From Hydrogenophilales bacterium (lineage in GTDB: Bacteria; Pseudomonadota; Gammaproteobacteria; Burkholderiales; Thiobacillaceae), in NCBI GenBank assembly GCA_023258975.1, contig JAHFRD010000004.1, positions 1 to 64,000 of the forward strand: a stretch of 64,000 nt of DNA, read 5' to 3'. The notes under the pieces are model-generated. The model was not told the DNA's origin and did not search any database. It worked only from the letters and a program-made list of their open reading frames with translations. The position numbers and the translations under genes were made by a program. Shown here piece by piece: positions 43,845-64,000 of the stretch; position 1 is the first letter of the stretch, and every line of letters starts with the position of its first letter.

Positions 43845-43913
43845 GAGCGCCGCTCGCGGCGCGATCATGGCGCCCACGAAGTGGCGTTCGGCCCGTGAGC
43901 GAACCCTCCTACA
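43840..43913. repeat. REP-like palindrome between convergent genes
   Basis: TGTAGGAG (43840-43847) is inverted as CTCCTACA (43906-43913), with internal GC-rich palindromes (GCGCCGC...). The outer GTAG/CTAC supply the stop codons of the exported protein on the left and of the V-type ATPase gene on the right. Confidence 0.7.
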
Positions 43914-45726: not shown

Positions 45727-46001
45727 TTCGTCGTCCTCGCCTCCAGCGGGGTAGGGCTGGATGGATGCCGGGATGCGCCCGGTGGAAGGCGCATCATAAA
45801 ACGCATTGAGGTGTCGGGTTGTTTGACATCGGGTTTGCCTGGCCACGGGAATGGGAGAGGAGAAGTCGGGGCTTCGCCTGTTGCGCCGCGACAACGATGG
45901 CATGAATATTGGTTGCGTGAGTGTCGGAATTCTTTACCGGAAGCCATTTCCAGAGATGGTGCGTATATATAAATATATGTTTATCAATGAGAAATGTTCC
46001 G
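45727..46001. other. divergent intergenic region upstream of the PEP-CTERM gene
   Basis: 275 bases between the V-ATPase start and the sigma-54 site. It is less GC-rich than its surroundings near 45960-45990 (TATATATAAATATATG), which could be an activator or IHF/H-NS-type bendable stretch. I see no gene or clear repeat in it. Confidence 0.5.
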
Positions 46002-47018: not shown

Positions 47019-47103
47019 TTCCAATCAAAGCCACACCCGTCGCGAGGCGGGGTCGGAAAGCTACGGGTCTTCAGGAGATCGCCGAGCTGCCATGACGTAG
47101 GAA
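47019..47103 (+). promoter_or_regulatory. candidate c-di-GMP-I (GEMM) riboswitch
   Basis: The segment reads AAAGCCACACC, then a stem with a GCGA (GNRA) tetraloop (CCGTC/GGCGG, 47037-47050), then GGTCGGAAAGCTACGGGTCT, a second variable stem, and GCCGAGCTGCC. This follows the c-di-GMP-I order: AAAGGCAAACC, GNRA-capped stem, GGACGCAAAGCCACGGGTCT, and GCCGGGTTGCC. TTCC (47019-47022) and GGAA (47100-47103) can close a basal stem. Several consensus positions differ, so the call is tentative. It lies ~150 bases before the giant surface-protein gene. Confidence 0.55.
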
Positions 47104-47166: not shown

Positions 47167-47242
47167 CCTCCGAGCGGAGGCGTCGGGTTGTGCGTTTGAG
47201 TCCCCTCTCCAGCCTTTTGCTTCGCCCGCGCGGGCGAGGAGG
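47167..47242 (+). promoter_or_regulatory. hairpins around the Shine-Dalgarno of the giant gene
   Basis: CCTCC (47167-47171) pairs with the GGAGG right after it (47176-47180), or alternatively with the Shine-Dalgarno GGAGG at 47238-47242. A second palindrome, CGCCCGCGCGGGCG (47223-47236), abuts the ribosome site GAGGAGG. The choice between these pairings could switch translation. Inferred from base pairing only. Confidence 0.45.
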
Positions 47243-47250
47243 TTAGCGCC

Positions 47251-50200
47251 ATGTTTGCCATGCCCACTCTGTTTGCCGGTAACAAGGTCAATCCCAATGT
47301 TTTCCAGGCGGCGCTTTCGCGTTTCTTCCGGCGTGGGGACAAGCATCGGCAAATCGAAAGGCCGCCGCAGCGGCACAAGATTCTGTTCGAGAGCCTCGAA
47401 CCCCGGTTGCTGATGTCGGCGGATTTCAACCCGGTCGCGCCGATGGGGTCGTTGATTCATCAGGCGCAGGCATCGACCGTTCTCGAAGTCGAGAACTCGT
47501 CCCATACCATCACCCTTTCCCTGGATGCGGGCCAGCAGGTTTCCGTGCTGTTCACCCCTCTTTCCGGCGGCATGCGGGGAGAGGTCGAACTGCTTGATCC
47601 GGATGGACATTCACTGGAGGTGGCCACGGCCGGCACCGCTGGGGAACTGACGCTGTTCAATTCCGCGCGGGCCTCGTCAGCCGGCGATTACGATCTGGTG
47701 GTGCGCAACCTGGAGGGAACGGGAAGTTTCACTGCGGAGATCGTCCTCAATGCCGCGCTGGAGTCCGAATCGCTGGGCATGGCCGGCAATGACGATCTGT
47801 CGGGTGCGCAGGCACTGGACTCCGCCTGGATCGACTTGCCGGTGAGCGGTCAGCGCGCGGCGGTGTTGGGTAGGGTGGAGGCGGGCGCGCCGGATATGTT
47901 CCGGCTGGATTTGAGCGATGGCGATGTGCTGGGTTTCGGTCTGGCCTCCCTGGAACGCGGCATGGGCGCCGGCCTGCGTCTGGAATTGCTTGATGGCACG
48001 GGTGGCCTGATCGCCGTGGGGACCGCCTCGGCCAGCAATATCGACCAGGTGATCGACGGCTTCACAGCCGGTTCCGGCACTTATTACCTGCGGGTGACCG
48101 GCGTTGGTGGCGAGCGATACAGCCTGCTCGCGGCGCGCCAGGCGCGCATGGATTTGGAACCCAATGACAACCCGGCCCAGGCCGAGGTGATGAGCCCGTT
48201 GTTCGATGCCCTGGGTAGTGTCGGGGTGATGGAATTCGGCAGGAGCGGCCCGATCCGGGTTGCCGTCCTGGCAGACTGGGACAGCAATACACTCGCCCAA
48301 CTCAACGACGACAGTTACTACGATTTCACCGCCATTCGGGTGAATTCGATGGAGATCGACACACTACAGGAACTCAACCAGTTCGATGTGGTGCTGCTGG
48401 GTTCCTGGCAGGATCAGAGCCAGCTCAATGCGATGGCGCCCGCTCTGCGCGCCTGGGTGGAAGCGGGCCACGGCGTCGTGGCCACGGGTTGGACGGTCGC
48501 CATGGCCGGACTCGGCAATGGCGGAGTGGTGGCCGACCTGGATGCCATCGTGCCGGTGAGCCTGAACACCATCGGCCGTTACGATTACACCAACTACTAC
48601 AACACCATCACCGTCAACGTCGTCGATTCCAGCCACCCCGTCACCCAGGGGGTGGCGAATTTCGATGGGGAGCTTTATCAGAATATCGAGTTCAGCACGT
48701 TGGCCGCCGACCCCGGCGCGGTGGTTCTCGGCACCGTGGGAATCAGCTCGCCCTATGGCACCTACCCCGCCATCGTCGCGGGCAGGCCAGGGCAGGGGCG
48801 TGGTGTCTATCTGGGTCCGGCCTATCCCGACAACAACTGGTCCGGCCCAATGGCCGACCGTCTGCTGGAACAGGCGGTGGCCTGGGCGGCCTTCTCGTCG
48901 CGGGATGCCCGTGACGACTACCTGCTGGCGGTAAACGAGGGGGATCATCTGCTCATCACGACCACCACGCCAGGCGGCGTGGCAAGCGACCCGGGCGACC
49001 TGCTTTCCCCGGTCAACAGCCTGGATCCGATGCTGCAATTGTTCGCGCCGGATGGAACGCCGATCACGGCGAATGACAACGATGCCGGCGATGGCCGCAA
49101 CGCCTTGCTCGACTACATCGTTCCGGCGGGCGGCGGTGGCGTCTATCGCCTGAGCGTGACCCCCGTTTCCGGCGGCGGTGATTACACCCTGCATGTCGAT
49201 GGCGCCAACGGAGTCATGGCAGGCGCGTCTCTCGACCTGATCGGCGTGACGCTTGTCGATGGCGCTCTGCTCAACACTTTCCCTTCGTTCATTGACTTCA
49301 CGTTTTCGCGCCCGGTGCGGCTCGATGCCATGCGGGCCGGCGATTTCACGTTGAGCGACGGGCCGGGCAACGCCGTGAATGTCAGCGGATGGACGCTGAC
49401 CAATGCCGATACCGTGCGCTTCCTGCTGGAATCACCGCCACTCCAGGATAGCCATTACAACCTGCATCTTGCCGCCAACGTGATCCGCGACCTGGCCAAT
49501 GGCGCCGGCAACGCGGAAGTCAACCAGGGCTTCGATGTGGACGTGACACCGCCCCAGGTGATCTGGCAATCGGTGTATGACGGTGATCGCCTGCTCGCCG
49601 GCGACTTCTATTTTTCCGTCAACTTCAGCGAGGAACTGCGGGGTGACGTGCTGGGCATGGAAGACGTGCGCCTGGTGGAGAACTTCAGCGGTCGGGTGAT
49701 CGGTCCGGCGAGTTTCGATTTTTGGGGGGATAGCCTCCAGGTCGGCTTCGGCGTACTTCCCGAAGGTAGTTACACCCTGACCCTGTTCAGCAATGCCAAC
49801 GGTTTCCGCGATCCCGCCGGCAATCTGCTGGACCATGATGGTGACGGCATCGCCGATGGAGATCTGGTCATTCATTTCGGTGTGGACACCGATGAGTTGC
49901 TCTATCCCACTCCCCTGAACAGCGCCAATCCCGCGGGCTCCCTGCTCTATGGCGGCGATACCCTGGGCGTGCTCTACGAACCCGGGGGCGAGGATGTGGA
50001 TACCTGGCTGCTCGATCTGGCCACCGGGCAGCGCTTCACGGTGGGTGTGTTCCCCGTGGACACGGGCCTTCGCGCCAATGTGACGGTCTACAACCCCGGC
50101 GGCGATTGGCTGGGATCGTTCGACGCGGCGCATCCGGGCGATATGGCCGGCCTCAACAACCTGCCGGTGGACGTGGCGGGGCGCTACCGCATCGAGGTAC

Positions 50201-53200
50201 GGAACCTTACTCACCCGGACACCGGGGAATGGACATCCGGCCGCTTCACGCTGGGCGTGTTGCTCAATGGCGCGGCCGAGGAAGAGGCGTACTTTGCCGG
50301 CGTCACCAATAACGATTTCGGCGGCGCGCAAAATCTGAACGACAGCTTCATCGATCTGGGCGATGGTGTTTCGCGCGGCGCGGTGGAGGGCAGTCTGGCC
50401 GTCGATGCCGCGCGTGTTCTGGCCGAGCAACATTTCGATGGCGCGCCCGGCGGCGAATGGGTTTTCAACACACTGACCGACGATCCGGCACCGCCGCCAA
50501 ACGGCTGGGACGGCTCCGCCCTCTCCATGTATTCCTCATTGTCTTCCAGCCCGAAATACACCGTCCTGCATGAAGCCGACTGGACGGTGGATCTGACCGG
50601 CGTCAGCCAGGCCACCCTGAGTTTTCGCGAGATCGGCTCGGATGCGACTGCGGAAGCCTTCGCGGGCGCTTTCCTCGGCCACTACAACGCCGACGGTGTC
50701 GCGATCAGCCAGGACGGCAACCTTTGGTTCCCGCTGCTGCAATTGAATGCCGAGTCCGGCGACGGCTGGAATACTTACAGCGTCGATCTCGATGCGGCGG
50801 CCGCCGCGGCCGGCTTCTCGCTGGATGGCGGACTGCACATCCGCTTCCAGTATTTCGACGACCCCTTCATTCTGAAATACCGCAGTTGGGACGACATCGT
50901 CATTACCACCGACAACCCGCTACCCGTCGTCGGGGTTTGGACGATCAACGAAACGGGTAACTATTACAACGGCCTTCACCAATTGGTCGATGGGATCACT
51001 CCCGATCAGTGGAGCAATTGGGACGCCGGCACCAACGTCTGGTGGTTTGACCAGGAGTTCGATCCCGGCAACGGCATGGGCCAGGCTTTCATGCTCGATC
51101 TGGGTTCTGTGCGGGAAGTGGCCGATTTGATGGTGAGCGTCGACAACAACGACGATTACGCCGTGGACTGGTCCGCTGACGGCGTGGCCTGGAACCGCTT
51201 GACCACGATTCCCTGGAGCGCGGGCGAGGTCGACTACGGCATGGATACCTTGAGCAGCGTTGCCGGCGATCCCGACTACGCCAGCGAGATGGATTTCGCC
51301 AACCCGGTCATGGCGCGCTTCCTGCGCGTCTACGCCACCGGCGGCGATGGCGCTTATGCCATCGGTGAAGTGCGGGTGCTGGGGCAGCCCGGCGTGCGCG
51401 TCGGAGTGGATCAGGACTGGTATGCCTTCACGCTGAATGATTGGGAAACCGTGTCCCTCGCGCTGCACCACGATAATCCGGAAGTCGCCGGCAATATCCG
51501 CCTGGAACTGTATGACCCGGATGGCCGGCAAGTGGCGCTCGGTGTGCCTGGAGATGGCCAGGTGGCGCAAATCATCGCCAACTTTGTGGCGCATCCCGCA
51601 CTCGGCGCCTCCGGGGTGAGCACCAGCGGGGAATTCCGCGCCCGCGTGTTCGGCATGGCCCCCGGCGACTACAACCTGGTGCTCACCCGCAACGCCGATT
51701 TCGGCCTGGAAACCGGGTCCGATCAGGTGCTGCGCGCGGATGGCGGCGTGCTGGGCGCCATCGTCGGCGGCGAGACCGACAGCTACCTGCTGCATGCCAA
51801 TCCGGGCGACTGGATCGAACTGTGGTTCACCCTGCCGGGAGATACCGACCCCTCCGATGGCGGCCAGGAGTTCCTCAACGGCCTGCTTCCGGCCATTCAG
51901 GTGTTCGACCCGAACGGCAACGAGGTCGCGCTGGATTACGATGGCGGCAACGGCCATTACAGCTTCACCGTGTCCACCGGCGACCCGGCCGATTATCGGG
52001 TGGTCGTCAGCGACAGCGGCGGCGCGGGCGGCGAATATGTGCTGCACGGCAATGGCGCCACCGGCGCCGAGCCGGATTTCCATGTGACCGCGATCGACCC
52101 GGTGGATGGCCGGGTTCTGGCCGACTACCCCAACTGGATTCGCCTCGACTTTTCCGCCCCAGTGCGGCCAGACCATGTGAACAACTGGGATCTGTGGGTT
52201 CTCGACCCCTCCGGAAACCAGCTGGATTCTCAATTCACCTGGATTCAGGATGCCGACACGGTCTACTACTACATCGGCAATTCCCTGAACGGCGAGGGGC
52301 TCTACACCGTCATGCTGGGCGGTGACACCCTGTTCGACACCAGTGGCCGTGGCGTCCTCCAGTTCGAGTCCTCCTTCTGGTTCGACGACACCTCACCCCG
52401 GGTGATCGCCAGCAGTGTCGAGGAAAACGCCATCGTCGCCAGCGGCGATCTGGTGGTGAACGTGCAATTCTCCGAGGCCATGCTGGCCGACGTGCTGGAT
52501 GCCACCGACGTCCTGCTGCGCAACGACAGCACGGGTGCGACCTTTGCCAGCGCCGGCATCAGCTACGACGTCGGCAACCGGATCGCCAGCATCGCTTTCA
52601 CCGGCCTGACGGAAGGCGATTACAGCCTCACCCTGTACAGTCGCGCCGATGCCTTCCGCGACGTCAGCGGAAAACTCCTGGACGGCGAATACAGCGGCAG
52701 CCTGCCTTCCGGCAACCATGTCCAGGGCGGCGATTTCGTGGTGCATTTCGCCGCCGACCACATTCTCCCGGTGGCCTATCCCACCCCACTGCTGGCCATC
52801 CAGCCGGATGGCTCGCTGATCCATGACCCGGTCATATCCGGCCTGTTCCATGCCACCGGCGACAGCGACGACTACACCCTCGATCTGGATGGCGGGCAGA
52901 CGCTCAGTGTCGTGTTGTCCCCGGCGGATGCCGGCGCGCGCGGAAACATCATGATCCTGGCGCCGGACGGCAGCCAGATCGCCGAAGCCACCGGCCTGGT
53001 GGACGGACAGCCGACCATTCTGCAAACCGCCCCGGTGGCCGGCGCCGGCCTCTATACCATCCGGGTGAGCGCCGCTCATGGAGCGGGCGCCTATCAGGCG
53101 CAAGCCTTCCTGAATACCGCGCTGGAACAGGGCGACGCTGTCCAGGATATCGACGCCAGCTTCATCCCCCTGGCCGGCACCGCCGAACGCGGTGCCGCGC

Positions 53201-56200
53201 GCGGCACGCTTGTCAGCGGCGACAGCGACTGGTACGGCTTCAGTCTGGACGCGGGCCAGTCGGCGACGCTGCTGCTGTCACGCGATAACCGCGTGGCGGC
53301 CGCCAATCTGATACTTGAGCTCCATGACGGCGCCGGCAATCTGCTGGCCAGCGGCCGGGCCGGATCCGTGGCGATCGACCAGATCATCAAGAACTTCACC
53401 CCGGCCACGGCCGGGACATTCCTGGTTCGAGTCAGTGGCGACCCGGCCGGCTACAGCCTGCTGGTGCTGCGCGAGGCGCAGTTCGACCTGGAACCCAACA
53501 GCCAGGCGGGCAATGCGCAAACCCTGACGTTCGGCACAGCGGGCACGGCCCATGTGCTTGGCTATCTGGGTAACTATGTGGGCGCCATCAGCACGGAACA
53601 GGAGCCCAACGACACCTCCGCCCAAGGCGGCTCGGCGGCGGATCTGCCCTACGCCAACGACCTCAACGGTTCCTTCGTCTCCCTCGGCTCCAACCAGTAC
53701 CGCGCCACGGTGAATGGCGTCATCAGCATCGGCAGTGATTGGGATTGGGATTTCTTCAAGGTCTCCCTGAGCGCCGGCGATTTCCTCGCCATCAACCTGA
53801 ACAACGCCGGTGTGGGCGACCCTTATCTGCACTTGTATAACAGCGGCGGCTCGCGGATCGCTTACAACGACGATTACTACGGCCTCAATTCCTATATCGG
53901 CTACACCGCCACCTATACGGGCGACTACTACATCGTCGCCGACTCCTACAGCAGTCGTACCGGCGGCTATCAATTGATCGCCACCGTCACCACGCCCAGC
54001 CCGAGCTTCGGCGACGGCGGCGACCAATACCTGTACGCAGTCAACCCGGGGGATCGCCTGGTGATCGAAACCGCGACGCCCGGCGGCGGCGCGGGCGAGC
54101 CGGTCAATCCGCTCGACCCGCAACTGTTCCTGTATGCGCCCGATGGCAGCCAGATCGCGTTCAACCAGAACAGCGCGGCGGATGGCCGCAATGCGCGAAT
54201 CGAATACACCGTGCCCGACGGCATGGCGGCCGGCAGTCTCTACCGCATCGAAATCCGCACCGAGAACGCGACCAAGGGCAGCTATGTCCTCAGCGTCACC
54301 GGCAGCGGCGCCACCGCGCCCGCGTTCAGCGTGACCGCCAGCAATCCCGCCAACGCCGCCCTGCTCATCGGTTACCCGGCCACCTACACCGTGGATCTGT
54401 CGGAGGCGATATTGCTCACCTCCGTCGCGGCCTCCGACCTGACCGTGGACGGAGTCGCTGCCGATAGCGTGGCCGTGGTCGACGCCGACACGCTACGTTT
54501 CACCATTGGCGGTGCCGCGCATGGCGATGCCGTGTACAGCGTGAACATCGCCGGGGGCGCCCTCACCAGTGTTTCCGGCAAGCCACTCGCGGCATTCACG
54601 GCGACTTTCGATGCCGACGCCACAGCCCCCAGAGTCATCGCCAGCAGCCTCGCCAGTGGCGACATCCTGGAACCCGGAGGTGTGATCTACACCGCGCGTT
54701 TCAGTGAAGAATTGGCCAGCGGCGGCCTCGGCCCCGAGGATGTGCGGCTGCTCAACCTGGATACCGGCGCCAGCCTCGCTCCGCTGGTCGGCTATGACGC
54801 GGTCAGCGGCACGCTGACCGCCAGCCTGGGCGTGCTGCCGGAAGGCAACTACCGACTGGTTCTGGTCTCCGCCGTCGATGCTTTCCGTGATCGTCGCGGC
54901 AACCTGCTCGATGGCGAGAACGGCGGCACCCTGCCCTCCGGTGACGGTGCGGCGGGCGGCAATTACGTCGTCGATTTCAGGGTGGACGCCAGTGGCGCCA
55001 CCCCGCTTACCACTACCCGGGTGGCGCCGCTCGGCTCGCTGGTCTACGACCCGCCGGCCTCGGCCAACCTGTATGCCGGCGGCGATGTCGATCTCTACGG
55101 CATCACCCTGGATGCCGGCCAGAAGGCCAGCGTGCGCCTGACCCTGCAAAACGCCGGCCTGTCCGCGCAACTCGAATTGCTGGGGCCGGACGGCAGCGTC
55201 CTGCCCGGCGCCAGCGTCAGCGGCACCGGCGGCACGCTGATCTTGCGGAACCTGCCCATCGACGTGGCGGGCGGTTACACCGTGCGCATTACCGGTCTCG
55301 GCGGTTCCGGCAACTATGAAACCCAGTTGGTGCTGAACGCGCAACTGGAAGCCGAAGCCTGGGGCGGTGCCGGCAACGACGCGCAGGCCGGCGCGGAAAG
55401 CCTGGATGCCTCGGCGATCGCCCTGCAAGGCGGCGCCGACCGACTCGCGGTGCTGGGCGGTGTCGCGGCCGGCAACAGCGATTGGTATCGCTTCACCCTG
55501 GCCGGCGGCCAGGCCGCCAGCCTCGCGGTGACCCGCACCGATGTGACGGGCGGCAGCGGGCTGACGCTGGAACTCTTCGATTCCGGTGGTGCCCGCCTTG
55601 CCCTGGGCATCGCCGACGCCGGCAATGTAGACCAGGCCATCAGCGGCTTTGTCGCTCCGGCGGCGGGTGAGTATTTCGCGCGCATTTCCGCCGCTTCCGC
55701 GTTGCCCTACAGCCTGGTGGTGACGCGCGGCGCCGAATTCGGCCTGGAAAACTCCTTCTCCGGGAATGTGCAGGACATCTCGCCGACCCTGCGCGCCGTC
55801 GGCTATCTGGGCGGCGCGGGTGGTGGCGCCATCCGTGTGGCCGTGCTCAACAATGGCAACGCGTGGCAGGTGGTGAACCAGCTCAACGACGACACCTGGT
55901 TTGATTTCACCGCGTCCTCGGTGGACTACACCCAGATCGACACGCTGGCCGAACTGAACAATTACGACGTGGTGATGCTGGGTGATTCCTACACCTCGCA
56001 CAGCCAGATCGCGGCCATCGCCCCGGCCCTGCGGCAATGGGTGGAAGCGGGCGGCGGCGTGGTGGGCACCGGCTGGGTCATTTACGACTCCGGGAGTTAC
56101 ACCGGCACACCCATCGCGGACATCAACGCCATCCTGCCGGTGGATACCAGCGTCACCCACCTCTACCAGTACAACCCCCTGATTCACATCAGCGATGGCG

Positions 56201-59200
56201 GCCATCCGGTGACGGCCGGCGTGGCGGATTTCTACCCCGGTTCTTACGCGGAATACTCGCCTACGGTGGATCCGGGCGCGACCGTGCTGGGTTATGCCGG
56301 CAGCCAGGCCGCCGTGGTGGTGGCCAACGTCGGTGCCGGCCGGGGTGTCTACCTCGGCCCCACCTATATGGTCAGCGCCGGCGGCGACCTGGACGTCGGT
56401 TCCGGAGATCGCCTGCTGGAACAGGCGGTAGCCTGGGCAGCGGCGGATCGGGACGACCGCTACAGCTTCCAGGTCACGGCGGGCCAGGCCCTGAATATCC
56501 GCACCTTCACGCCTTACGATGGTGTCGGCGAGCCGGCCAATAGCCTGGATGCCCGTCTGGAGTTGTATGACCCGAACGGCAACCTGGTGGCCAGCGACGA
56601 CAACGGCGCCGATGGCGACGACCACAACGCCAACATCCTCTATACCGCCGCCGCCGGCGGCCGCTACGAACTCAGGGTGCTTGCCGCCACGACCGGGCAG
56701 ACCAACAAGGGCGACTACATCGTCCAGGTCAGCGGCGCCACCCTGTCCGCCGGCCCGGCACCGACGGTGGTGGCCAGCAGCCCGGTGGAGGGCGCCAATT
56801 TCCTGGCGCCGCCGGCGAGCCTCACCCTCACCCTGTCCGAGGGACTTCTGGCCACCTCGGTGCAGGCCTCCGACCTGGTGCTGGATCACGGCGCGGGCGT
56901 CACCGGCGTGACCCTGGTGGACGGCCGCACCGTGCGCTTCACGATTACCGTGCCCGACGTCCAGGGCACCTATTCCTACACCCTGGCGGAGGGCGTGGTG
57001 TCCGATCTGCAAGGGCAAGGCAATGTCGCCTACACCGGCCATTTCACGGTGGATCACAGCGGCGCCCGGGTGGTGAGCCAGAACCCGGAAGTGCAGGGTT
57101 CGGCGCCATTCAGCCTGATGACGTTCACCTTCAACGAGAACATCGACCCCGCCAGCGTATCCACGGCGGACATCGTCAGTTTCACCGGGCCGACGGGCAA
57201 CAACATCGCCATCTCCAGCGTCAGTGTTTCGGGAAATACCCTCACGGTGAATTTCGCCGCCCAGAACGTCCAGGGCACTTACACCCTGGTGCTGGGGCCC
57301 AACATCAACGATCTGGTCGGCAACTCGATGGACCAGAACCAGGATGGCGCCAACGGCCAGGCCAACGATGCCTATACCGCCGTGGTGCAACTGCAATCGC
57401 CTGACCTGCGGGCCGCGTCGTTGAGCAACCCGGCAGCCGCTTCCTGGGGCGATACCCTCCACCTCGCCTGGACGGTGGAAAACATCGGCGCCGATCCGGC
57501 GCGCAACAACTGGTACGACGCCATCTATCTGTCCAGCGACGCGACCCTGGACGGTAGCGACAGCCTGCTCCACTACGCGTGGGCCAGCGTCAATCCACTG
57601 GCGGCCGGCACCGATTACACCCATGCGCTCGATCTGGCGTTGCCGCTCGACTGGAACCCCATCGAGGGCACCTATTACCTGCTCCTCTCCACCGACGCCT
57701 TCGGCCACCAGCCCGAATCCAGCGAAAGCAACAACGTGGTGGCCGGCCAGGCCATCCACATCACCCTGCCGGCCAAACCGGATCTGGTGGTCAGCAACCT
57801 CAGCGCGCCGGCCGATCTGATGCTCAACCCCAGCGGCGATACCCTGGTGCCGATTACCTGGACCATCACCAACCAGGGCACGGCGGCGGCAACAGGCTGG
57901 TATGACTACGTCTACCTGTCCAGCGACAACAGCGTCGGCGGCGATGTTTATTTCGGTGGTTATTACTTTGAAGGCACCTTGAATCCGGGCGAATCGGCGA
58001 CCCGTGGCCAGAGCATCTCGCTGCCCTACAACTATGTGGGCAACGCCACCTCGGCCACGCGTTGGCTGGTGGTGACGACCGATGCCTGGAACAGCCACTA
58101 TGAAGTCACCAACGCCACGCCGCGCAGCCATCCCGACGCGGAGAACAACAACTCCACCGTGGACGACGCCTCCATGACCGTGCGTTATCCGGCCCTGCCG
58201 AATCTGACGGTCACCGCCGTCACTCCGCCGGATCATTCGTACTCCGGCCAGGACGCGGTAATCAGTTGGACGGTCAGCAACGTCGGCGCCGGCGCCACCA
58301 GCGTGCCGACCTGGTATGACTGGGTCTACCTGTCCACGGACAACGTCCTGGACAGCGGCGATACCTCTCTGGGCCAGGTTCAGAATCCCAGTTACCTGCC
58401 GGGTGGCGGCAGCCTCGGCAACAGCTACACCAGCAGCCTCCACTACACCCTGCCGCAGGGCATTTCAGGCAGCTATTACTACCTGGTCAAGACCGATATT
58501 TACGACCAGGTCTTCGAGAACCAGAACGAAACCGACAACCTCGGCAGCGTCCTCGTCAATGTCGAACTGACGCCACCGCCGGATCTACAGGTCGTCGCGC
58601 GCAACCCCAACAACAACGAATGGGAATCCTCGGTGCATATCAGCGCCCCCGGCGGGCTCTGGTCCGGCCAGGCCGCCACGGTCACCTGGGCCGTGACCAA
58701 CCGGGGTGACGGCACCACCCAGGCCCCCGGCGGCTGGTACGACCGCGTCTACCTGTCCACGGACGCCAGCACCGACTATGGCAACGGCGACATCCTGCTC
58801 GGCACCTGGTACTACAACGCCGCCGCCGACGGGCAACTGGCTTCCGGCGCGAGCTATACCCGCTCCGGTAGCGTCACGCTGCCGATCGGCATGCCCGCCG
58901 ATGGCGTGCCCACCACCTACTACTTCTACGTCGTCACCGACGCCAACCGGCAGGTTTACGAATATGTGAACGAAGGCAACAACGATGATTCCTACGCCAG
59001 CGCCGTGGTCAACCTGACCCCGCCGCCCGACCTGGAACCCGGCCCCATCCATCTCCCGGCCAGCGCCGAGACGGGCCATGCCTTCAGCTTCAACTACACG
59101 GTGACCAACTATGGCACCCCCACGCCCAACAGTTACTGGTTCGACCGCTTCTGGCTGTCCGCCGACGATGTCCTCAATGCCTCCGATCTCTACTTGGGCG

Positions 59201-62200
59201 ACCGCAACCACTATGGCGTCCTGGATACCGATGCCTCCTACGGCGGCGCCTTCGTCGCCACCCTGCCGAGCAATCTGGCCGCCGGCGGCTATCGGGTAAT
59301 CATGCGGACGGACTACGACAACCGGGTGTTCGAGGGTCTGGATAACCCGGCGATCGGCTACTACCCGGAAGGCAACAACACGGTGGTCAGCGACGTGATG
59401 AGCGTGGTTTCCAACCCCGCCGACCTGGTCATCGACAGCTTCAGCAGCAGCACCGGCGGCGAGGCCGGCAAGACCATCAGCGCCTCCTGGAGCGTGCGCA
59501 ACGCCGGCTCTGGCGACTCCGTGGTGATCGGCTGGACCGATCAACTGGTCGCTTCGCTGGACGCCCTGCTCGGCAACGGCGACGACGTCGTGCTCTACAC
59601 CCACAACCATTCCGGTCTGTTGGCGGCGGGAGCCGGTTACAGCGTCAACAACGTCTCCGTGGCGCTGCCCATCACCCTGGCGAGTGGCGAATACACCCTG
59701 TTCCTGCGCACCGACGCCGGCAACCAGGTGTACGAATCCGACAACGGCAACAACAGCGCCGCAAATCCGCTCAGCCTGAACCGCCAGACCGCCGATCTCC
59801 AGGTGGTCTCCCTGTCCGGCCTGCCCGCCGACATCACCGCCGGTAGCGCGTTGAGCCTGAACTGGCGGGTGGAAAACCTGGGTGTGGCCAGCACCAACGT
59901 CAACTATTGGTATGACGACGTCTTCCTGTCGCTGGACACCACCCTGGACGGCGGCGACATCGGCATCGGCTCGCTGCGCCACAACAATGTTCTGGCGCCG
60001 AACACCGGCTACGATGCCGGCGCGACTTTCACGCTCTCCACCGGCATCGCCGCCGGCAACTACTACGTCATCGCGCGGACCGATCGTGACAATGTCGTGG
60101 TCGAGTCGCCTTCGGAAGCCAACAACACGCGCGTCTCCGCCGCCACGGTGGCGGTCGCCGCCTGGGCGGGCGGCGAGAAACCGCTGGCCGAACTGCGTCC
60201 GGATCTCTCGGTAACCGCCATCACCCTGCCGCCCGAGGCCTACAGCGGCCAGGGCGTCACCCTGAGCTGGACGGTGGCCAACCAATCCGCCATCGACAAC
60301 ACCGGCTCGCGCTGGTGGAACGATAGCGTCTACCTGTCGCGCGACCTTTATTTCGACCGCTACAGCGACCTGTACCTTGGCTATGTTCCGCAGTACCGCA
60401 ATCTGGCGGCAGGCGACAGCTACGGCGTCACCCAGTCCTTCACCGTTCCGTCCGGCTACACCGGCCCGTTCTATGCTTTCGTGGTGACGGACGCCAGCGG
60501 CAGCGTCGCGGAAAGCAATGAAACCAACAACATCACCCGCTCCGCGAACGTGGTAAGTGTGAGTCTGGCGCCGCCCTCCAACCTGGTGGCCGGCACGATC
60601 ACCATCCCCGCCAACGGGGTGCCGGGGCAGCGGGCGGATATCAGTTACAGCGTCAGCAACGGGCCCGGCGCCAACTCGGTGTTCGGCACCTGGAAAGACA
60701 CCCTGTATCTGTCCAGCGATACCGTCTGGGATATCGACGACATCGCCCTGGGTTCCGTCTGGACCACATACTCCAGCGCCGCGCCGCTGGCCGGCGGCGA
60801 CAGCTACGGCCATACCCTGAACGTCACCCTGCCGGGCGTGAACCCGGGCGACTACCACGTCATCGTGCGTAGCGACATCCTCAACTCCATCCCCGAGACC
60901 AATGAGGAGGACAACCTTTCCGCCAGCCTCGACGCAGTGAGCATGGACGCCGAAGTGCTGCCGCTGGGCGGCTCGGTAAGCGGCAACCTGGGCAATCAGC
61001 AGGCGGTCTATTACAAGCTCGACGTGACAGCCGGCGAAACCGTGAAGCTGAGTTTCGACAGCACCGACGGCAACGCCGCCAACGAGATCTACGTGCGCTA
61101 TGGCGTCATGCCCAGCCTGGGACGCTTCGATTATTCCTCGCTGGAAGAGTACTCCGCCGACCCGACCGCGCTGATCCCGGAAACCCGGGCGGGCACTTAT
61201 TACGTCATGGTCCTCGGCGCATCGGTCTCCGGCGCGCCGGCCTACACGCTGAGTTCTGCGGTCATCCCCTTCTCCATCACCCATGTGCGCACCGACGTGG
61301 TGGGCAACGCCGGCGAGGCCACCCTCCGGATCGACGGCGCCCGGTTCGCCGAGGCCACCCGGTTCGCCCTGCGGGCGCCGGATGGCACGCTCCACGCCGA
61401 CAGCAAAGTGTTCGTGGAAGACTCCAGCCGGGCCTACGTCACCTTCAATCTGCTGCAGGCGGCCGCCGGTGTCTATGACGTGGTGGCGACTCAGGCGGAT
61501 GGCCAGACTACCGCGTTGAATGACACCGTCACGGTGATCGCCAACGCACGTGGCGCCAACCTGTTCAGCCTGATCGACGGGCCGAGTCAGGTCACCACCG
61601 GCCGCATCAACAGCTTCATGCTGCAATACACCAACCAGGGCGATGGCGACTCGATGGCGCCGCTCCTGATCATCACCGGCCAGGCCGACACCCCGTTGGG
61701 TTACGCCAGCGGCGATCTGCGTTCGGAACCCATCTACTTCCTGGGCGCCAGCCTGGACGGCCCGATGGACATCCTGCGTCCGGATACCGGCTATTCGCAG
61801 CAGGTGCTGTTCCGCGCCCCCGGCACCGCCGGCCAGCTCAATATCTCGGTCGCCACCATCCAGGCCACCGACAACCGCGTCATCGGCAGCACCAAATGGA
61901 ATGAGATCAAGGCCGCGATCAAGCCGGCCACCCCGGCCGGCATGAGCGATGCGGCCTGGAATGCGGAATGGGACGTCTTCTGGGGACGCATCCGCGCCGC
62001 GATGGGCGATACCTGGGGCGATTACGTGCGCATGCTCAACCAGGCCATGCTGCTGGTGTCCGAGCAGGGCAGCCCGGTGCGCGACATCCGCACCCTGATG
62101 GCGACGGTTCACGACCGGTATCCCGATTGGCGCCCCGCTTCCAACCTGAGCGGCCGCCTGCTCGACAGCGCAACCGGCGCGGCCCTGGCCAACGTGGAAC

Positions 62201-64000
62201 TCGCCGCTTACCGCGCCACCGCGCGAGGCGTGGTACTGGGCGGTTACTCGACCACCGACGCCAACGGTTATTTCACCCTGAGCGGCCTGCAACCCGGCGC
62301 CTACAGCCTGACGCTGTCCGGCGGCGGGGTGTATGACATGAACCGCAACGGCGTGGACGACAGTGGCGAACTCAACGCCGCCGGCAATGCGCCGTTCGGC
62401 CTGCCGAGCTTCGATGTCGGCTTCAGCGCCGACCGCGACGCCGGCAACGTCTACGTGCTCAACACCACCCGGGTGGCGCACACCGATGATTCCGCGCCGG
62501 TGCTGGCTACCGCGCCGGATGGTACGCCGCACATTCTCTGGCTGCGCGACGGGCGCGCCTGGCACGCCTGGTATGACGGCAGCAACTGGGTTGACGCCGT
62601 GGCGGTTTCCGGCGCCGGCGCCTCCGACCTCAGCCTGGTCGCGGCGGGCAATCTGCTCGACGCTTCCAACCCCGGCCTGATCGCCGTGTGGCAGCAGAAC
62701 GGCGGCAACAGCGCCCTGGGCGGCAACGACTCCGAAATCTGGTACGCGGTCGCGCGGCCTCGGGTCGGTGGCGGCTACCAGTGGAGCGAGCCGATCCGGC
62801 TCACTCATGACAACGTGTCTGATCGCGGCATTGACGTCGTGGTCGTCGGCGGTGGCCAGGTGCTGATCGTCGACAAGAAAGAGGATGTGGCGATCCAGGA
62901 CGACGCCGACATCTATTACTACCTGGTCGACGTGGCGACCGGCGGCGTGGTCTGGACGGCTTCGCCGGTCGTTCTGCAACCGTCGCTCACCGTGGCCTAC
63001 AGCTACGACAAGGAATACGGCCCCTGGAGCGCGCTGGGCATGGAAGTCGGTGCCTCCATCGGCCTCACCGGCAGCGCCACGCAATCCGGCTGCGCGGCCA
63101 GCGTCAGCGTCGGCGGCAAAGCCGAACTGACCCTGGAAAGTGACAATCTCGGCATCACTCTGGAAGGCCACGGCAACCTGCAAGCCGACTGGGGTGTCGA
63201 TCTGGTCGCTCACGACTGGGACTTCCACCAGGCCACCGCCAGCATCGGCATCAGCGGCGAACTGGATTGGAAGAACGGCCTGCTGAAGATGCTCGGCGCC
63301 ATTCCGACGCCGGCCACCAAGGCCGCCGCCACCTTCATCGAATGGGCTACCGCGCTGATCAATTCCACCGGTCTGGTCGAAGCCAGCAATGGCATCAAGG
63401 GCAGCATCGGCCTCGATTTCAGCGGCCTGCAATGGACCATCGCCGAACCCTTCCCGAGTTGGGTCTGGCCGAACGTGATCGCGGAAGCGGCGGTGAACGC
63501 CAGCGTCAAGGCGTATGCCGGTGTCCAGGTCAAGGATAACGATGACTGGAAACTGGAAGTCGAGGGCGGCATCGTCGCAGCCGTGAATGTCTACCCGACC
63601 GTCGAGTTGACCAAATTGGGTGGCGAGATCGGCATCACCCTCACCCTGGACGGATGGGATCTGAGTCCCGATCCGTGGTTCCTCGGCTATGAGAAATCCA
63701 GTCTCATCACCCTGGGCGACGGCGGCATGGGCACGCCGCTCTACCTCATGTCCTGGAACCCGGGACTGCTGATCGGGAGCAACGCCAACTACAGCGACAG
63801 CGTCAGCCGCAGCCTGCTCGCGAACGTCGCCTCCGATGTCGCCAAAGACGGTTCGCCGGCTCTGGCCAGCGACTCCGGCGGCACCTACGCGGCCTGGACC
63901 CACGGCACTGGTGACATCGGTAGCGAGGTGCGGGTTTCCAGCTACACCGGCGGCGCCTGGAGCGCCCCGGTCACGATCGCCGGCAGCGTGGGCTTCAACA
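47251..64000 (+). CDS. giant LEPR-XLL surface protein, 3' end outside the window
   Basis: One frame stays open for 5,583 codons to the window edge. The start ATG follows GAGGAGG by 8 bases. There is no classical signal peptide; residues ~43-58 carry the LEPR-XLL tag (LFESLEPRLLMSAD). Modules in order: beta/pre-peptidase (PPC)-like segments; a glutamine-amidotransferase-like domain (~335-549); Ig-like segments (SFIDFTFSRPVRLDAM); a discoidin-like domain (~1227-1380); more PPC and Ig-like units; a second amidotransferase-like domain (~2861-3063); nine CARDB-type repeats (~3384-4560); a PPC-like unit; a carboxypeptidase-regulatory-like domain (~4963-5027, TDANGYFTLSGLQPGAYSL); a propeller-like stretch (DGTPHILWLRDGRAWHAW); and a Gly-rich beta region. 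It is probably secreted and adhesive or matrix-forming. Confidence 0.92.
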   Translation, partial: MFAMPTLFAGNKVNPNVFQAALSRFFRRGDKHRQIERPPQRHKILFESLEPRLLMSADFNPVAPMGSLIHQAQASTVLEVENSSHTITLSLDAGQQVSVLFTPLSGGMRGEVELLDPDGHSLEVATAGTAGELTLFNSARASSAGDYDLVVRNLEGTGSFTAEIVLNAALESESLGMAGNDDLSGAQALDSAWIDLPVSGQRAAVLGRVEAGAPDMFRLDLSDGDVLGFGLASLERGMGAGLRLELLDGTGGLIAVGTASASNIDQVIDGFTAGSGTYYLRVTGVGGERYSLLAARQARMDLEPNDNPAQAEVMSPLFDALGSVGVMEFGRSGPIRVAVLADWDSNTLAQLNDDSYYDFTAIRVNSMEIDTLQELNQFDVVLLGSWQDQSQLNAMAPALRAWVEAGHGVVATGWTVAMAGLGNGGVVADLDAIVPVSLNTIGRYDYTNYYNTITVNVVDSSHPVTQGVANFDGELYQNIEFSTLAADPGAVVLGTVGISSPYGTYPAIVAGRPGQGRGVYLGPAYPDNNWSGPMADRLLEQAVAWAAFSSRDARDDYLLAVNEGDHLLITTTTPGGVASDPGDLLSPVNSLDPMLQLFAPDGTPITANDNDAGDGRNALLDYIVPAGGGGVYRLSVTPVSGGGDYTLHVDGANGVMAGASLDLIGVTLVDGALLNTFPSFIDFTFSRPVRLDAMRAGDFTLSDGPGNAVNVSGWTLTNADTVRFLLESPPLQDSHYNLHLAANVIRDLANGAGNAEVNQGFDVDVTPPQVIWQSVYDGDRLLAGDFYFSVNFSEELRGDVLGMEDVRLVENFSGRVIGPASFDFWGDSLQVGFGVLPEGSYTLTLFSNANGFRDPAGNLLDHDGDGIADGDLVIHFGVDTDELLYPTPLNSANPAGSLLYGGDTLGVLYEPGGEDVDTWLLDLATGQRFTVGVFPVDTGLRANVTVYNPGGDWLGSFDAAHPGDMAGLNNLPVDVAGRYRIEVRNLTHPDTGEWTSGRFTLGVLLNGAAEEEAYFAGVTNNDFGGAQNLNDSFIDLGDGVSRGAVEGSLAVDAARVLAEQHFDGAPGGEWVFNTLTDDPAPPPNGWDGSALSMYSSLSSSPKYTVLHEADWTVDLTGVSQATLSFREIGSDATAEAFAGAFLGHYNADGVAISQDGNLWFPLLQLNAESGDGWNTYSVDLDAAAAAAGFSLDGGLHIRFQYFDDPFILKYRSWDDIVITTDNPLPVVGVWTINETGNYYNGLHQLVDGITPDQWSNWDAGTNVWWFDQEFDPGNGMGQAFMLDLGSVREVADLMVSVDNNDDYAVDWSADGVAWNRLTTIPWSAGEVDYGMDTLSSVAGDPDYASEMDFANPVMARFLRVYATGGDGAYAIGEVRVLGQPGVRVGVDQDWYAFTLNDWETVSLALHHDNPEVAGNIRLELYDPDGRQVALGVPGDGQVAQIIANFVAHPALGASGVSTSGEFRARVFGMAPGDYNLVLTRNADFGLETGSDQVLRADGGVLGAIVGGETDSYLLHANPGDWIELWFTLPGDTDPSDGGQEFLNGLLPAIQVFDPNGNEVALDYDGGNGHYSFTVSTGDPADYRVVVSDSGGAGGEYVLHGNGATGAEPDFHVTAIDPVDGRVLADYPNWIRLDFSAPVRPDHVNNWDLWVLDPSGNQLDSQFTWIQDADTVYYYIGNSLNGEGLYTVMLGGDTLFDTSGRGVLQFESSFWFDDTSPRVIASSVEENAIVASGDLVVNVQFSEAMLADVLDATDVLLRNDSTGATFASAGISYDVGNRIASIAFTGLTEGDYSLTLYSRADAFRDVSGKLLDGEYSGSLPSGNHVQGGDFVVHFAADHILPVAYPTPLLAIQPDGSLIHDPVISGLFHATGDSDDYTLDLDGGQTLSVVLSPADAGARGNIMILAPDGSQIAEATGLVDGQPTILQTAPVAGAGLYTIRVSAAHGAGAYQAQAFLNTALEQGDAVQDIDASFIPLAGTAERGAARGTLVSGDSDWYGFSLDAGQSATLLLSRDNRVAAANLILELHDGAGNLLASGRAGSVAIDQIIKNFTPATAGTFLVRVSGDPAGYSLLVLREAQFDLEPNSQAGNAQTLTFGTAGTAHVLGYLGNYVGAISTEQEPNDTSAQGGSAADLPYANDLNGSFVSLGSNQYRATVNGVISIGSDWDWDFFKVSLSAGDFLAINLNNAGVGDPYLHLYNSGGSRIAYNDDYYGLNSYIGYTATYTGDYYIVADSYSSRTGGYQLIATVTTPSPSFGDGGDQYLYAVNPGDRLVIETATPGGGAGEPVNPLDPQLFLYAPDGSQIAFNQNSAADGRNARIEYTVPDGMAAGSLYRIEIRTENATKGSYVLSVTGSGATAPAFSVTASNPANAALLIGYPATYTVDLSEAILLTSVAASDLTVDGVAADSVAVVDADTLRFTIGGAAHGDAVYSVNIAGGALTSVSGKPLAAFTATFDADATAPRVIASSLASGDILEPGGVIYTARFSEELASGGLGPEDVRLLNLDTGASLAPLVGYDAVSGTLTASLGVLPEGNYRLVLVSAVDAFRDRRGNLLDGENGGTLPSGDGAAGGNYVVDFRVDASGATPLTTTRVAPLGSLVYDPPASANLYAGGDVDLYGITLDAGQKASVRLTLQNAGLSAQLELLGPDGSVLPGASVSGTGGTLILRNLPIDVAGGYTVRITGLGGSGNYETQLVLNAQLEAEAWGGAGNDAQAGAESLDASAIALQGGADRLAVLGGVAAGNSDWYRFTLAGGQAASLAVTRTDVTGGSGLTLELFDSGGARLALGIADAGNVDQAISGFVAPAAGEYFARISAASALPYSLVVTRGAEFGLENSFSGNVQDISPTLRAVGYLGGAGGGAIRVAVLNNGNAWQVVNQLNDDTWFDFTASSVDYTQIDTLAELNNYDVVMLGDSYTSHSQIAAIAPALRQWVEAGGGVVGTGWVIYDSGSYTGTPIADINAILPVDTSVTHLYQYNPLIHISDGGHPVTAGVADFYPGSYAEYSPTVDPGATVLGYAGSQAAVVVANVGAGRGVYLGPTYMVSAGGDLDVGSGDRLLEQAVAWAAADRDDRYSFQVTAGQALNIRTFTPYDGVGEPANSLDARLELYDPNGNLVASDDNGADGDDHNANILYTAAAGGRYELRVLAATTGQTNKGDYIVQVSGATLSAGPAPTVVASSPVEGANFLAPPASLTLTLSEGLLATSVQASDLVLDHGAGVTGVTLVDGRTVRFTITVPDVQGTYSYTLAEGVVSDLQGQGNVAYTGHFTVDHSGARVVSQNPEVQGSAPFSLMTFTFNENIDPASVSTADIVSFTGPTGNNIAISSVSVSGNTLTVNFAAQNVQGTYTLVLGPNINDLVGNSMDQNQDGANGQANDAYTAVVQLQSPDLRAASLSNPAAASWGDTLHLAWTVENIGADPARNNWYDAIYLSSDATLDGSDSLLHYAWASVNPLAAGTDYTHALDLALPLDWNPIEGTYYLLLSTDAFGHQPESSESNNVVAGQAIHITLPAKPDLVVSNLSAPADLMLNPSGDTLVPITWTITNQGTAAATGWYDYVYLSSDNSVGGDVYFGGYYFEGTLNPGESATRGQSISLPYNYVGNATSATRWLVVTTDAWNSHYEVTNATPRSHPDAENNNSTVDDASMTVRYPALPNLTVTAVTPPDHSYSGQDAVISWTVSNVGAGATSVPTWYDWVYLSTDNVLDSGDTSLGQVQNPSYLPGGGSLGNSYTSSLHYTLPQGISGSYYYLVKTDIYDQVFENQNETDNLGSVLVNVELTPPPDLQVVARNPNNNEWESSVHISAPGGLWSGQAATVTWAVTNRGDGTTQAPGGWYDRVYLSTDASTDYGNGDILLGTWYYNAAADGQLASGASYTRSGSVTLPIGMPADGVPTTYYFYVVTDANRQVYEYVNEGNNDDSYASAVVNLTPPPDLEPGPIHLPASAETGHAFSFNYTVTNYGTPTPNSYWFDRFWLSADDVLNASDLYLGDRNHYGVLDTDASYGGAFVATLPSNLAAGGYRVIMRTDYDNRVFEGLDNPAIGYYPEGNNTVVSDVMSVVSNPADLVIDSFSSSTGGEAGKTISASWSVRNAGSGDSVVIGWTDQLVASLDALLGNGDDVVLYTHNHSGLLAAGAGYSVNNVSVALPITLASGEYTLFLRTDAGNQVYESDNGNNSAANPLSLNRQTADLQVVSLSGLPADITAGSALSLNWRVENLGVASTNVNYWYDDVFLSLDTTLDGGDIGIGSLRHNNVLAPNTGYDAGATFTLSTGIAAGNYYVIARTDRDNVVVESPSEANNTRVSAATVAVAAWAGGEKPLAELRPDLSVTAITLPPEAYSGQGVTLSWTVANQSAIDNTGSRWWNDSVYLSRDLYFDRYSDLYLGYVPQYRNLAAGDSYGVTQSFTVPSGYTGPFYAFVVTDASGSVAESNETNNITRSANVVSVSLAPPSNLVAGTITIPANGVPGQRADISYSVSNGPGANSVFGTWKDTLYLSSDTVWDIDDIALGSVWTTYSSAAPLAGGDSYGHTLNVTLPGVNPGDYHVIVRSDILNSIPETNEEDNLSASLDAVSMDAEVLPLGGSVSGNLGNQQAVYYKLDVTAGETVKLSFDSTDGNAANEIYVRYGVMPSLGRFDYSSLEEYSADPTALIPETRAGTYYVMVLGASVSGAPAYTLSSAVIPFSITHVRTDVVGNAGEATLRIDGARFAEATRFALRAPDGTLHADSKVFVEDSSRAYVTFNLLQAAAGVYDVVATQADGQTTALNDTVTVIANARGANLFSLIDGPSQVTTGRINSFMLQYTNQGDGDSMAPLLIITGQADTPLGYASGDLRSEPIYFLGASLDGPMDILRPDTGYSQQVLFRAPGTAGQLNISVATIQATDNRVIGSTKWNEIKAAIKPATPAGMSDAAWNAEWDVFWGRIRAAMGDTWGDYVRMLNQAMLLVSEQGSPVRDIRTLMATVHDRYPDWRPASNLSGRLLDSATGAALANVELAAYRATARGVVLGGYSTTDANGYFTLSGLQPGAYSLTLSGGGVYDMNRNGVDDSGELNAAGNAPFGLPSFDVGFSADRDAGNVYVLNTTRVAHTDDSAPVLATAPDGTPHILWLRDGRAWHAWYDGSNWVDAVAVSGAGASDLSLVAAGNLLDASNPGLIAVWQQNGGNSALGGNDSEIWYAVARPRVGGGYQWSEPIRLTHDNVSDRGIDVVVVGGGQVLIVDKKEDVAIQDDADIYYYLVDVATGGVVWTASPVVLQPSLTVAYSYDKEYGPWSALGMEVGASIGLTGSATQSGCAASVSVGGKAELTLESDNLGITLEGHGNLQADWGVDLVAHDWDFHQATASIGISGELDWKNGLLKMLGAIPTPATKAAATFIEWATALINSTGLVEASNGIKGSIGLDFSGLQWTIAEPFPSWVWPNVIAEAAVNASVKAYAGVQVKDNDDWKLEVEGGIVAAVNVYPTVELTKLGGEIGITLTLDGWDLSPDPWFLGYEKSSLITLGDGGMGTPLYLMSWNPGLLIGSNANYSDSVSRSLLANVASDVAKDGSPALASDSGGTYAAWTHGTGDIGSEVRVSSYTGGAWSAPVTIAGSVGFN
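57400..60940 (+). repeat. nine tandem CARDB-type protein repeats
   Basis: Repeat units begin at 57400, 57778, 58198, 58579, 59026, 59419, 59791, 60199 and 60577, spaced 372-447 bases (124-149 residues). Most open with P/A-DL-x-V and contain a WYDxVYLSxD core followed by acidic residues, then a YYxxVxTD and an E-x-NExNN motif. The DNA copies have diverged, so this is an old array and not a recent amplification. Confidence 0.85.

Follow-up and report, generated by a model that had tools for sequence, protein, structure and literature searches.

The DNA analyzed here, the window (64,000 bp), comprises positions 1-64000 of contig C9 (252,424 bases) of the 3.6 Mb genome of a Hydrogenophilales bacterium (G000), and its right end cuts through a giant gene that encodes a LEPR-XLL protein; positions beyond the window are given in contig numbering, which continues that of the window. 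Same-strand exporter genes (contig 71244-78668) lie directly downstream; they probably encode a type-I-like, leader-directed exporter that has the giant protein as its cargo. An earlier note, made from the window alone, had described a single frame of more than 5,500 residues running from an ATG with a good ribosome site to the window edge, and this description is accurate: ATG 47251 opens 5583 codons within the window behind a well-placed Shine-Dalgarno sequence (Table 1). Extension along the contig to the stop codon gives a complete protein of 7961 amino acids, the last 2378 of which fall beyond the window, and there is no internal stop or frameshift that would speak against it. A collinear protein from an Accumulibacter metagenome-assembled genome (MAG; G279, reached via L141) is 65% identical to residues 1-7126 of the giant protein (7126 residues), and one from Hydrogenophilales bacterium 28-61-23 (G277) is 46% identical over residues 3370-7046; because of these two alignments the giant frame is, as judged by homology, a real coding frame. 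The domain arrangement, which the earlier note did not recognize, is not unique, since the Accumulibacter protein shares it. Two minus-strand frames opposite the giant gene (54493-58443 and 58585-65979), themselves not searched, are taken as chance frames because the plus-strand frame holds the domains and has the 65% identical ortholog.

The whole protein was scanned with Pfam and NCBIfam as two overlapping pieces (E ≤ 0.01). Its N-terminal tag, predicted in the earlier note, clearly exceeds the cut-off of NF012209, a model of a 24-position N-terminal motif whose one-line NCBIfam description names no exporter; the giant protein is a new member of this known LEPR-XLL tag family. The predicted amidotransferase-like, Ig-like, CARDB and carboxypeptidase-regulatory-like units all score above their Pfam cut-offs, as do PPC domains, and the predicted discoidin-like unit does coincide with an F5/8 match, but one that lies below its cut-off. 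Beyond the window the protein continues with SdrD_B (four stretches), S8 subtilase, Big_9/cadherin-like, PKD and cohesin domains. The subtilase triad is intact (D6496, H6538 and S6724, plus N6637), and the D, H and S motifs are also present in the G277 and G279 proteins. An S8 protease together with Ig, CARDB, SdrD and cohesin modules suggests a surface or matrix protein. By eye, a dockerin-like stretch lies between two cohesin-like stretches.

In the downstream cassette, GAF-HlyD, M50, SecA_DEAD and HlyD genes stand side by side, which fits the secondary SecA_DEAD/type-I-related locus published by Kamneva, Poudel and Ward (2015; PMC4452313). In that locus, also reported in Planctomycetes, genes for GAF, Peptidase_M50, SecA_DEAD without the wing-scaffold domain, and HlyD likewise occur together; its SecA was proposed to be the ATPase and its M50 protein the membrane part, and its broader role was called "completely unknown". 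The terms LEPR, giant, DUF3467, PqqD and adhesin gave no match in the searched text of that paper. The closest named cassettes among the matches listed are those of a Rhodoferax MAG and of Hydrogenophilales bacterium 28-61-23 (M50 68%), and a SecA-like gene accompanies the M50 gene in 76 of 80 named loci. At 39 of 69 loci, same-strand frames of at least 900 aa terminate upstream of GAF-HlyD at a distance of no more than 2.5 kb, the count being an upper bound that includes shadow frames. A small DUF3467 protein is encoded just upstream of GAF-HlyD on the same strand here and at 31 further loci of 101, and could possibly be a chaperone or regulator. One contig is held twice (L070 = L186) in the counts of 101 and 69 loci and of 100 and 88 sequences used here and below.

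The tag and the exporter genes occur together. LEPR-XLL and the M50 protein of this locus were searched for in 274 genomes of the class, this one included, which were treated as independent; 19 have LEPR-XLL and 38 have an M50 match at E ≤ 1e-10, and M50 proteins of the cassette type were delimited by a cut at 1e-60, set in the gap between 4e-68 and 4e-49. The tag is found in 16 of the 22 genomes with a cassette-type M50 protein versus 3 of the 252 others (G224, G076 and G213; p = 2e-18), and by a hand count LEPR-XLL occurs in 15 families, 13 of which also contain a cassette-type M50. Among the six cassette-type genomes without the tag, G258 and G264 show a motif below threshold immediately next to the cassette (14.4 and 13.9 bits), G179 and G094 show motifs that exceed the cut-off once the E-value is relaxed (19.7 and 17.3 bits), and G265 and G008 have no convincing LEPR-XLL motif even in that looser search. 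A scan of public genomes with an M50 alignment gave at least 577 relatives; the 80 kept come from Beta-, Gamma- and Alphaproteobacteria, Desulfobacteraceae, other "Deltaproteobacteria", Nitrospira, Rokubacteria, Omnitrophota and others. Fifty of these 80 genomes, all of which had been selected through M50 alone, were searched for LEPR-XLL; it was present in 41, in at most five copies each and mostly in frames of more than 1000 residues. Similarly, in the phylum of Geomonas paludis (247 genomes) the M50 protein (query L211, E ≤ 1e-60) occurs in seven genomes, and LEPR-XLL in five of these seven versus 2 of the 240 others. The distance from the end of the frame to the M50 gene downstream is 2-3 kb for a 15,080-residue frame of G476 and for both LEPR frames of G321. 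In the genomes compared, the tag accompanies the adjoining exporter, marks its likely cargo and is probably its address label. Giant frames beside two other cassettes gave, with Pfam, Gmad2 and PPC above cut-off (L200) and no match (L194).

Leaders were taken from hidden Markov model matches, with starts chosen by rule; five of 57 loci were unreadable by pattern. The remaining 52 give the motif [FL]E-x-LEPR-x-LL-S-A-D, with S conserved in 48 of them and A and D in 46 each; its letters are partly fixed by the mode of search. The stretch N-terminal to the motif is basic (median 20% K+R and 8% D+E), and the hydrophobic maximum is modest (median 1.19). The leader of the giant protein itself reaches a maximum 13-residue Kyte-Doolittle mean of 0.85, compared with 1.95 and 2.09 for two other N-termini from this genome, which by eye resemble Sec signal peptides, which bears out the earlier note's observation that a normal signal peptide is lacking. 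That note had left export to either the N-terminal tag or a C-terminal signal beyond the window. The tag is favored as the best candidate export signal through its co-occurrence with the cassette, and a C-terminal signal is possible as well: a tail of the type W-x3-[FWY]-[VLIF] is present in 15 of 40 giant frames upstream of cassettes versus 2 of 1026 background windows, the pattern having been written after the tails were viewed, so that its p-value is descriptive only. This tail, which may be a second signal or an anchor, often follows IDW and precedes RNPNAxLRI (IDW ... W-x-x-D-[FWY]-[VL] ... RNPNAxLRI; L005, L066, L144, L150, L172, L179, L181 and others). LEPR-XLL also resembles a Pfam motif of Planctomycetes, Planc_extracel (LExLExRRLL).

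The same genome carries a second M50 gene (29%; C5), which adjoins a 2029-codon frame (G000:C5, from about 11058) whose leader is MALEPRILFDGAA, with the motif LEPRILFDGAA. This sister cassette (L088:5265-11010) contains OEP/TolC, HlyD, a second HlyD whose N-terminus is GAF-like but below cut-off, and M50-HlyD, and shows no SecA-like match. G224 has a similar set, with no GAF match and the leader LEPRLLFDGAA, and OEP/TolC is found in the sister cassettes L088 and L090. The SecA-less type was checked by Pfam in L088 and L090, and L089, L098, L099 and L100 were assigned to it because their M50 similarity is weak and their loci gave no SecA-like match; all six have D-[AG] leaders (type LExRxxxD[AG]). 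Among loci of the SecA type of M50 with a leader in view (L068, L069, L075, L080, L083, L103, L148, L156, L167, L197 and L213), ten have S-[AG] and one A-A; L068, L069, L080 and L103 have no SecA-like gene within the locus itself. This pairing of leader and cassette comes from a small set seen partly via patterns of our own, one of which missed L149, and L211 (opposite-strand match) and L208 (unrelated match) were dropped from the leader counts. G323 holds both leader types. At L096 (7001-13352; G060) a divergent 573-aa SecA-like frame adjoins weakly similar M50 and HlyD proteins, possibly an intermediate between the SecA-type and the SecA-less cassettes.

The M50 protein carries the HExxH and NPxxxxD motifs of S2P/M50 intramembrane proteases, which are present in 100 of 100 sequences with coverage above 0.85 (the L075 gene is interrupted and its first piece alone was aligned). 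The N-terminal domain of the M50 protein has the PqqD/RRE fold of proteins that bind the leaders of RiPPs (ribosomally synthesized and post-translationally modified peptides; RRE, RiPP recognition element), a fold from which we infer that it may recognize the LEPR-XLL leader. RiPP leader systems (lasso peptide B1 protein, daptide M50 protease, YydH/LiaK) share the PqqD/RRE-type fold and the HExxH intramembrane protease, but the cargo here is thousands of residues long rather than a peptide, and scores remain below those NCBIfam cut-offs. The nearest NCBIfam model, the daptide biosynthesis intramembrane metalloprotease NF041824 (132 bits; equivalog cut-off 300), is by name a maturation enzyme, and this would suit a reading in which tag and cassette are truly associated, with the tag serving in maturation or anchoring rather than export and being cut by the M50 protein after translocation by another route. 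Such a role seems very unlikely, since the M50 protein, GAF-HlyD and HlyD hold envelope-spanning exporter adaptor domains that a pure processing enzyme would not need.

The 88 SecA-like sequences separate from 12 housekeeping SecA proteins with support 0.989. The SecA-like protein keeps the SecA motor core and is without housekeeping residues ~699-932, which we take to be the wing, the two-helix finger and the C-terminal linker; its structural model ends after one long helix, and a housekeeping SecA is located elsewhere in the genome (C3:44314-46032, 938-aa frame). With four NCBIfam models of accessory SecA2 the SecA-like protein scores below the cut-offs (460.9/930, 508.6/1085, 448.5/725 and 393.3/1100 bits). 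Accessory SecAs elsewhere use SecYEG, and the retained motor core would allow the SecA-like protein to act as a SecA2 with the housekeeping SecYEG, delivering the giant protein into the periplasm with HlyD acting later or not at all. We consider this Sec route unlikely. The C-terminal residues are missing, a hydrophobic core is absent from the leader of the giant protein, the second cassette of this genome gave no SecA-like match, and SecY gave no match among the operon genes scanned here (other cassettes were not scanned for it).

Giant adhesins are classic cargo of type I secretion (HlyB/HlyD/TolC), and the HlyD-type adaptors of the cassette, a partial answer to the earlier note's suggestion to look for type I secretion genes, are shared with that system, as is OEP/TolC in the sisters L088 and L090. 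The giant protein could then be an ordinary type I adhesin, exported by an ABC (ATP-binding cassette)/HlyD/TolC machine encoded elsewhere, with the cassette having another job such as peptide export; the recurring C-terminal tail would also suit this. It is nevertheless a rather improbable explanation. No ABC transporter was matched among the operon genes scanned (the remaining genome was not searched for one), its place in the operon being occupied by the SecA-like ATPase and the M50 protein; the conserved motif is N-terminal; and neither the RTX repeats nor the PEP-CTERM tag that the earlier note proposed as a check was listed in the scans of the whole giant protein. In addition, LEPR-XLL follows the M50/SecA cassette in two large samples, and long frames end near GAF-HlyD at many loci, to the extent that the upper bound above allows.

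Several observations weigh against export by the adjoining cassette. The M50 domain itself scores 25.5 bits in Pfam, just under the cut-off of 27.2, and TolC was not found among the operon genes scanned. The hydrophobic maximum is at least 1.6 in 9 of the 52 leaders. The looser LEPR search was also positive in 7 of 14 control genomes, 9 of the 50 M50-chosen genomes are without the tag at threshold, and G213 and G076 carry the tag without an M50 match at E ≤ 1e-10. Five of the 22 genomes with the cassette gave no SecA-like gene (G094, G177, G190, G206 and G052, in which the contig stops at M50), so SecA may be dispensable or lost; G177, though counted in the 22, has a locus without GAF-HlyD or SecA-like genes and a D-type leader (LLDAN). 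Finally, Candidatus Accumulibacter appositus (L149, 20093-22145) breaks the pairing of leader and cassette, with a D-type leader, LEPRILLDATPS (LLDAT), ~5 kb away from a cassette of the SecA type.

With these points set against it, export by the adjoining cassette can be pictured as follows. The basic N-terminus with its LEPR-XLL(S-A-D) motif would be the export leader, which the M50 protein would recognize through its PqqD/RRE domain, similar to RiPP recognition elements; the C-terminally shortened SecA motor would feed the unfolded chain, and the HlyD-type parts of the M50 protein, GAF-HlyD and the separate HlyD would form the link between the inner membrane and a pore of the TolC type whose gene lies elsewhere. 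Cleavage of the leader near LLSA/D is probably the task of the M50 active site, and one exporter may serve all LEPR-XLL proteins of the cell, whether linked to it or not.

Table 1. Features of the giant gene and its surroundings (positions above 64000 lie beyond the window)
Feature	Position	Strand	Evidence or remark
c-di-GMP-I-GGC riboswitch aptamer, 5' leader of giant gene	47021..47095	+	RF03167, 62.1 bits (gathering 59)
Shine-Dalgarno GAGGAGG	47236..47242	+	8 nt before ATG 47251; sequence
Giant LEPR-XLL protein gene	47251..64000 in window, stop 71134-71136	+	One open frame
LEPR-XLL leader motif, residues 45-64	47383..47442	+	NF012209, 26.1 bits (cut-off 17)
ThuA/amidotransferase-like domain, residues 356-546	48316..48888	+	PF06283, 41.2 bits (cut-off 33.4)
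F5/8 (discoidin)-like stretch, weak	50962..51354	+	PF00754, 19.1 bits (below cut-off 28.2)
PPC domain, best of several	56455..56679	+	PF04151, whole-piece 106.9 bits
Big_5 Ig-like domain, best of several	57067..57339	+	PF13205, whole-piece 129.8 bits
CARDB region, best stretch of piece 1 to best of piece 2	58198..60537	+	PF07705, 89.9 and 175.6 bits
Carboxypeptidase-regulatory-like domain	62146..62346	+	PF13620, 79 bits
S8 subtilase, residues 6488-6762, among SdrD-like domains	66712-67536	+	Pfam/NCBIfam
DUF3467 protein	71244-71543	+	67.3 bits
Hairpin with T-run, terminator-like	Between DUF3467 and GAF-HlyD genes		By eye
GAF-HlyD	ATG 71710 (or GTG 71572) to 73563	+	
PqqD-M50-HlyD-like protein	73589-75736	+	
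SecA-like protein	ATG 75796 (or TTG 75733) to 77766	+	
HlyD-type adaptor	Start uncertain, e.g. ATG 77847, to 78668	+	

The 5' leader of the giant gene contains a cyclic di-GMP (c-di-GMP)-I riboswitch aptamer, which the earlier note did not mention, and RF01051 matches the same site (55.6 bits vs 35). A G stands at the presumed position of the specificity base G20, which would select c-di-GMP rather than cyclic GMP-AMP. In Hydrogenophilales bacterium 28-61-23 (L221) the same riboswitch family lies upstream of the LEPR-XLL giant gene (69.8 bits), and in this lineage the riboswitch would put the giant protein under biofilm-type control, both the ligand and the sign of the response being presumed. 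Two results weigh against this part of the interpretation. The Rfam scan covered 56 other LEPR loci, including that of the Accumulibacter ortholog (L228), and L221 was its only match, so the riboswitch is not a general control of the LEPR family; and the leader RNA folds no better than shuffled sequences (z -1.15 and -0.90), a chance-level result, so no expression platform is claimed. Two further c-di-GMP-I riboswitches lie on the minus strand of another contig (G000:C32, 83007-83094 and 84602-84696; L007), adjoining genes that by eye resemble PilW/PilY1-type pilus proteins. Unrelated to the giant gene, the minus strand at 43909-45903 encodes a 664-aa protein with a partial match to V-type ATPase subunit I, adjoining an Hsp70 gene (40772-42652).

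Relative to the published SecA_DEAD locus, the present comparison would add LEPR-XLL giants as cargo, the leader-binding fold, the riboswitch, and a sister cassette that has no SecA and a leader type of its own. The term LEPR-XLL occurs in two papers of the open-access literature (PMC10868602 and PMC9611531), and a search of that literature, which mostly does not include subscription papers and preprints, found none that connects the tag with the SecA/M50 locus. The laboratory strain Methylobacterium extorquens AM1 may offer a parallel: the 15,831-residue, repeat-rich META1_2412 lies in an island from gene 2402 to 2415 (PMC2680597), and the AM1 copy of the exporter operon is genes 2399-2402 (PMC4452313). 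Unlike the giant protein here, META1_2412 is described with RTX-type and haemagglutinin matches (PMC2680597); no open-access paper connecting it with the AM1 exporter operon was found. The pairing of tag and exporter, the leader types and the leader-binding fold likely make this a new variant of type-I-like secretion, and possibly a separate class. Such a distinct class would rely on a leader code in the style of RiPPs (LEPRxLL-S-A-D or LExRxxxD-[AG]); the code would be read by an RRE domain that forms one protein with an intramembrane protease and an adaptor, and a motor derived from SecA would take the place of the ABC transporter. It would be dedicated to proteins of thousands to ~15,000 residues, would span several Gram-negative phyla, and would include the case of one cell whose two sister machines read two leader dialects, a proposal that we put forward tentatively, at a little under even confidence. 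If the interpretation is correct, the exporter locus described in 2015 would acquire a cargo and an address label, and the exit of some of the largest bacterial proteins would be explained. In annotation, short SecA copies of this kind should be kept apart from the plain preprotein translocase SecA, and the leader-binding fold suggests that RiPP-type leader recognition has been reused for giant proteins.
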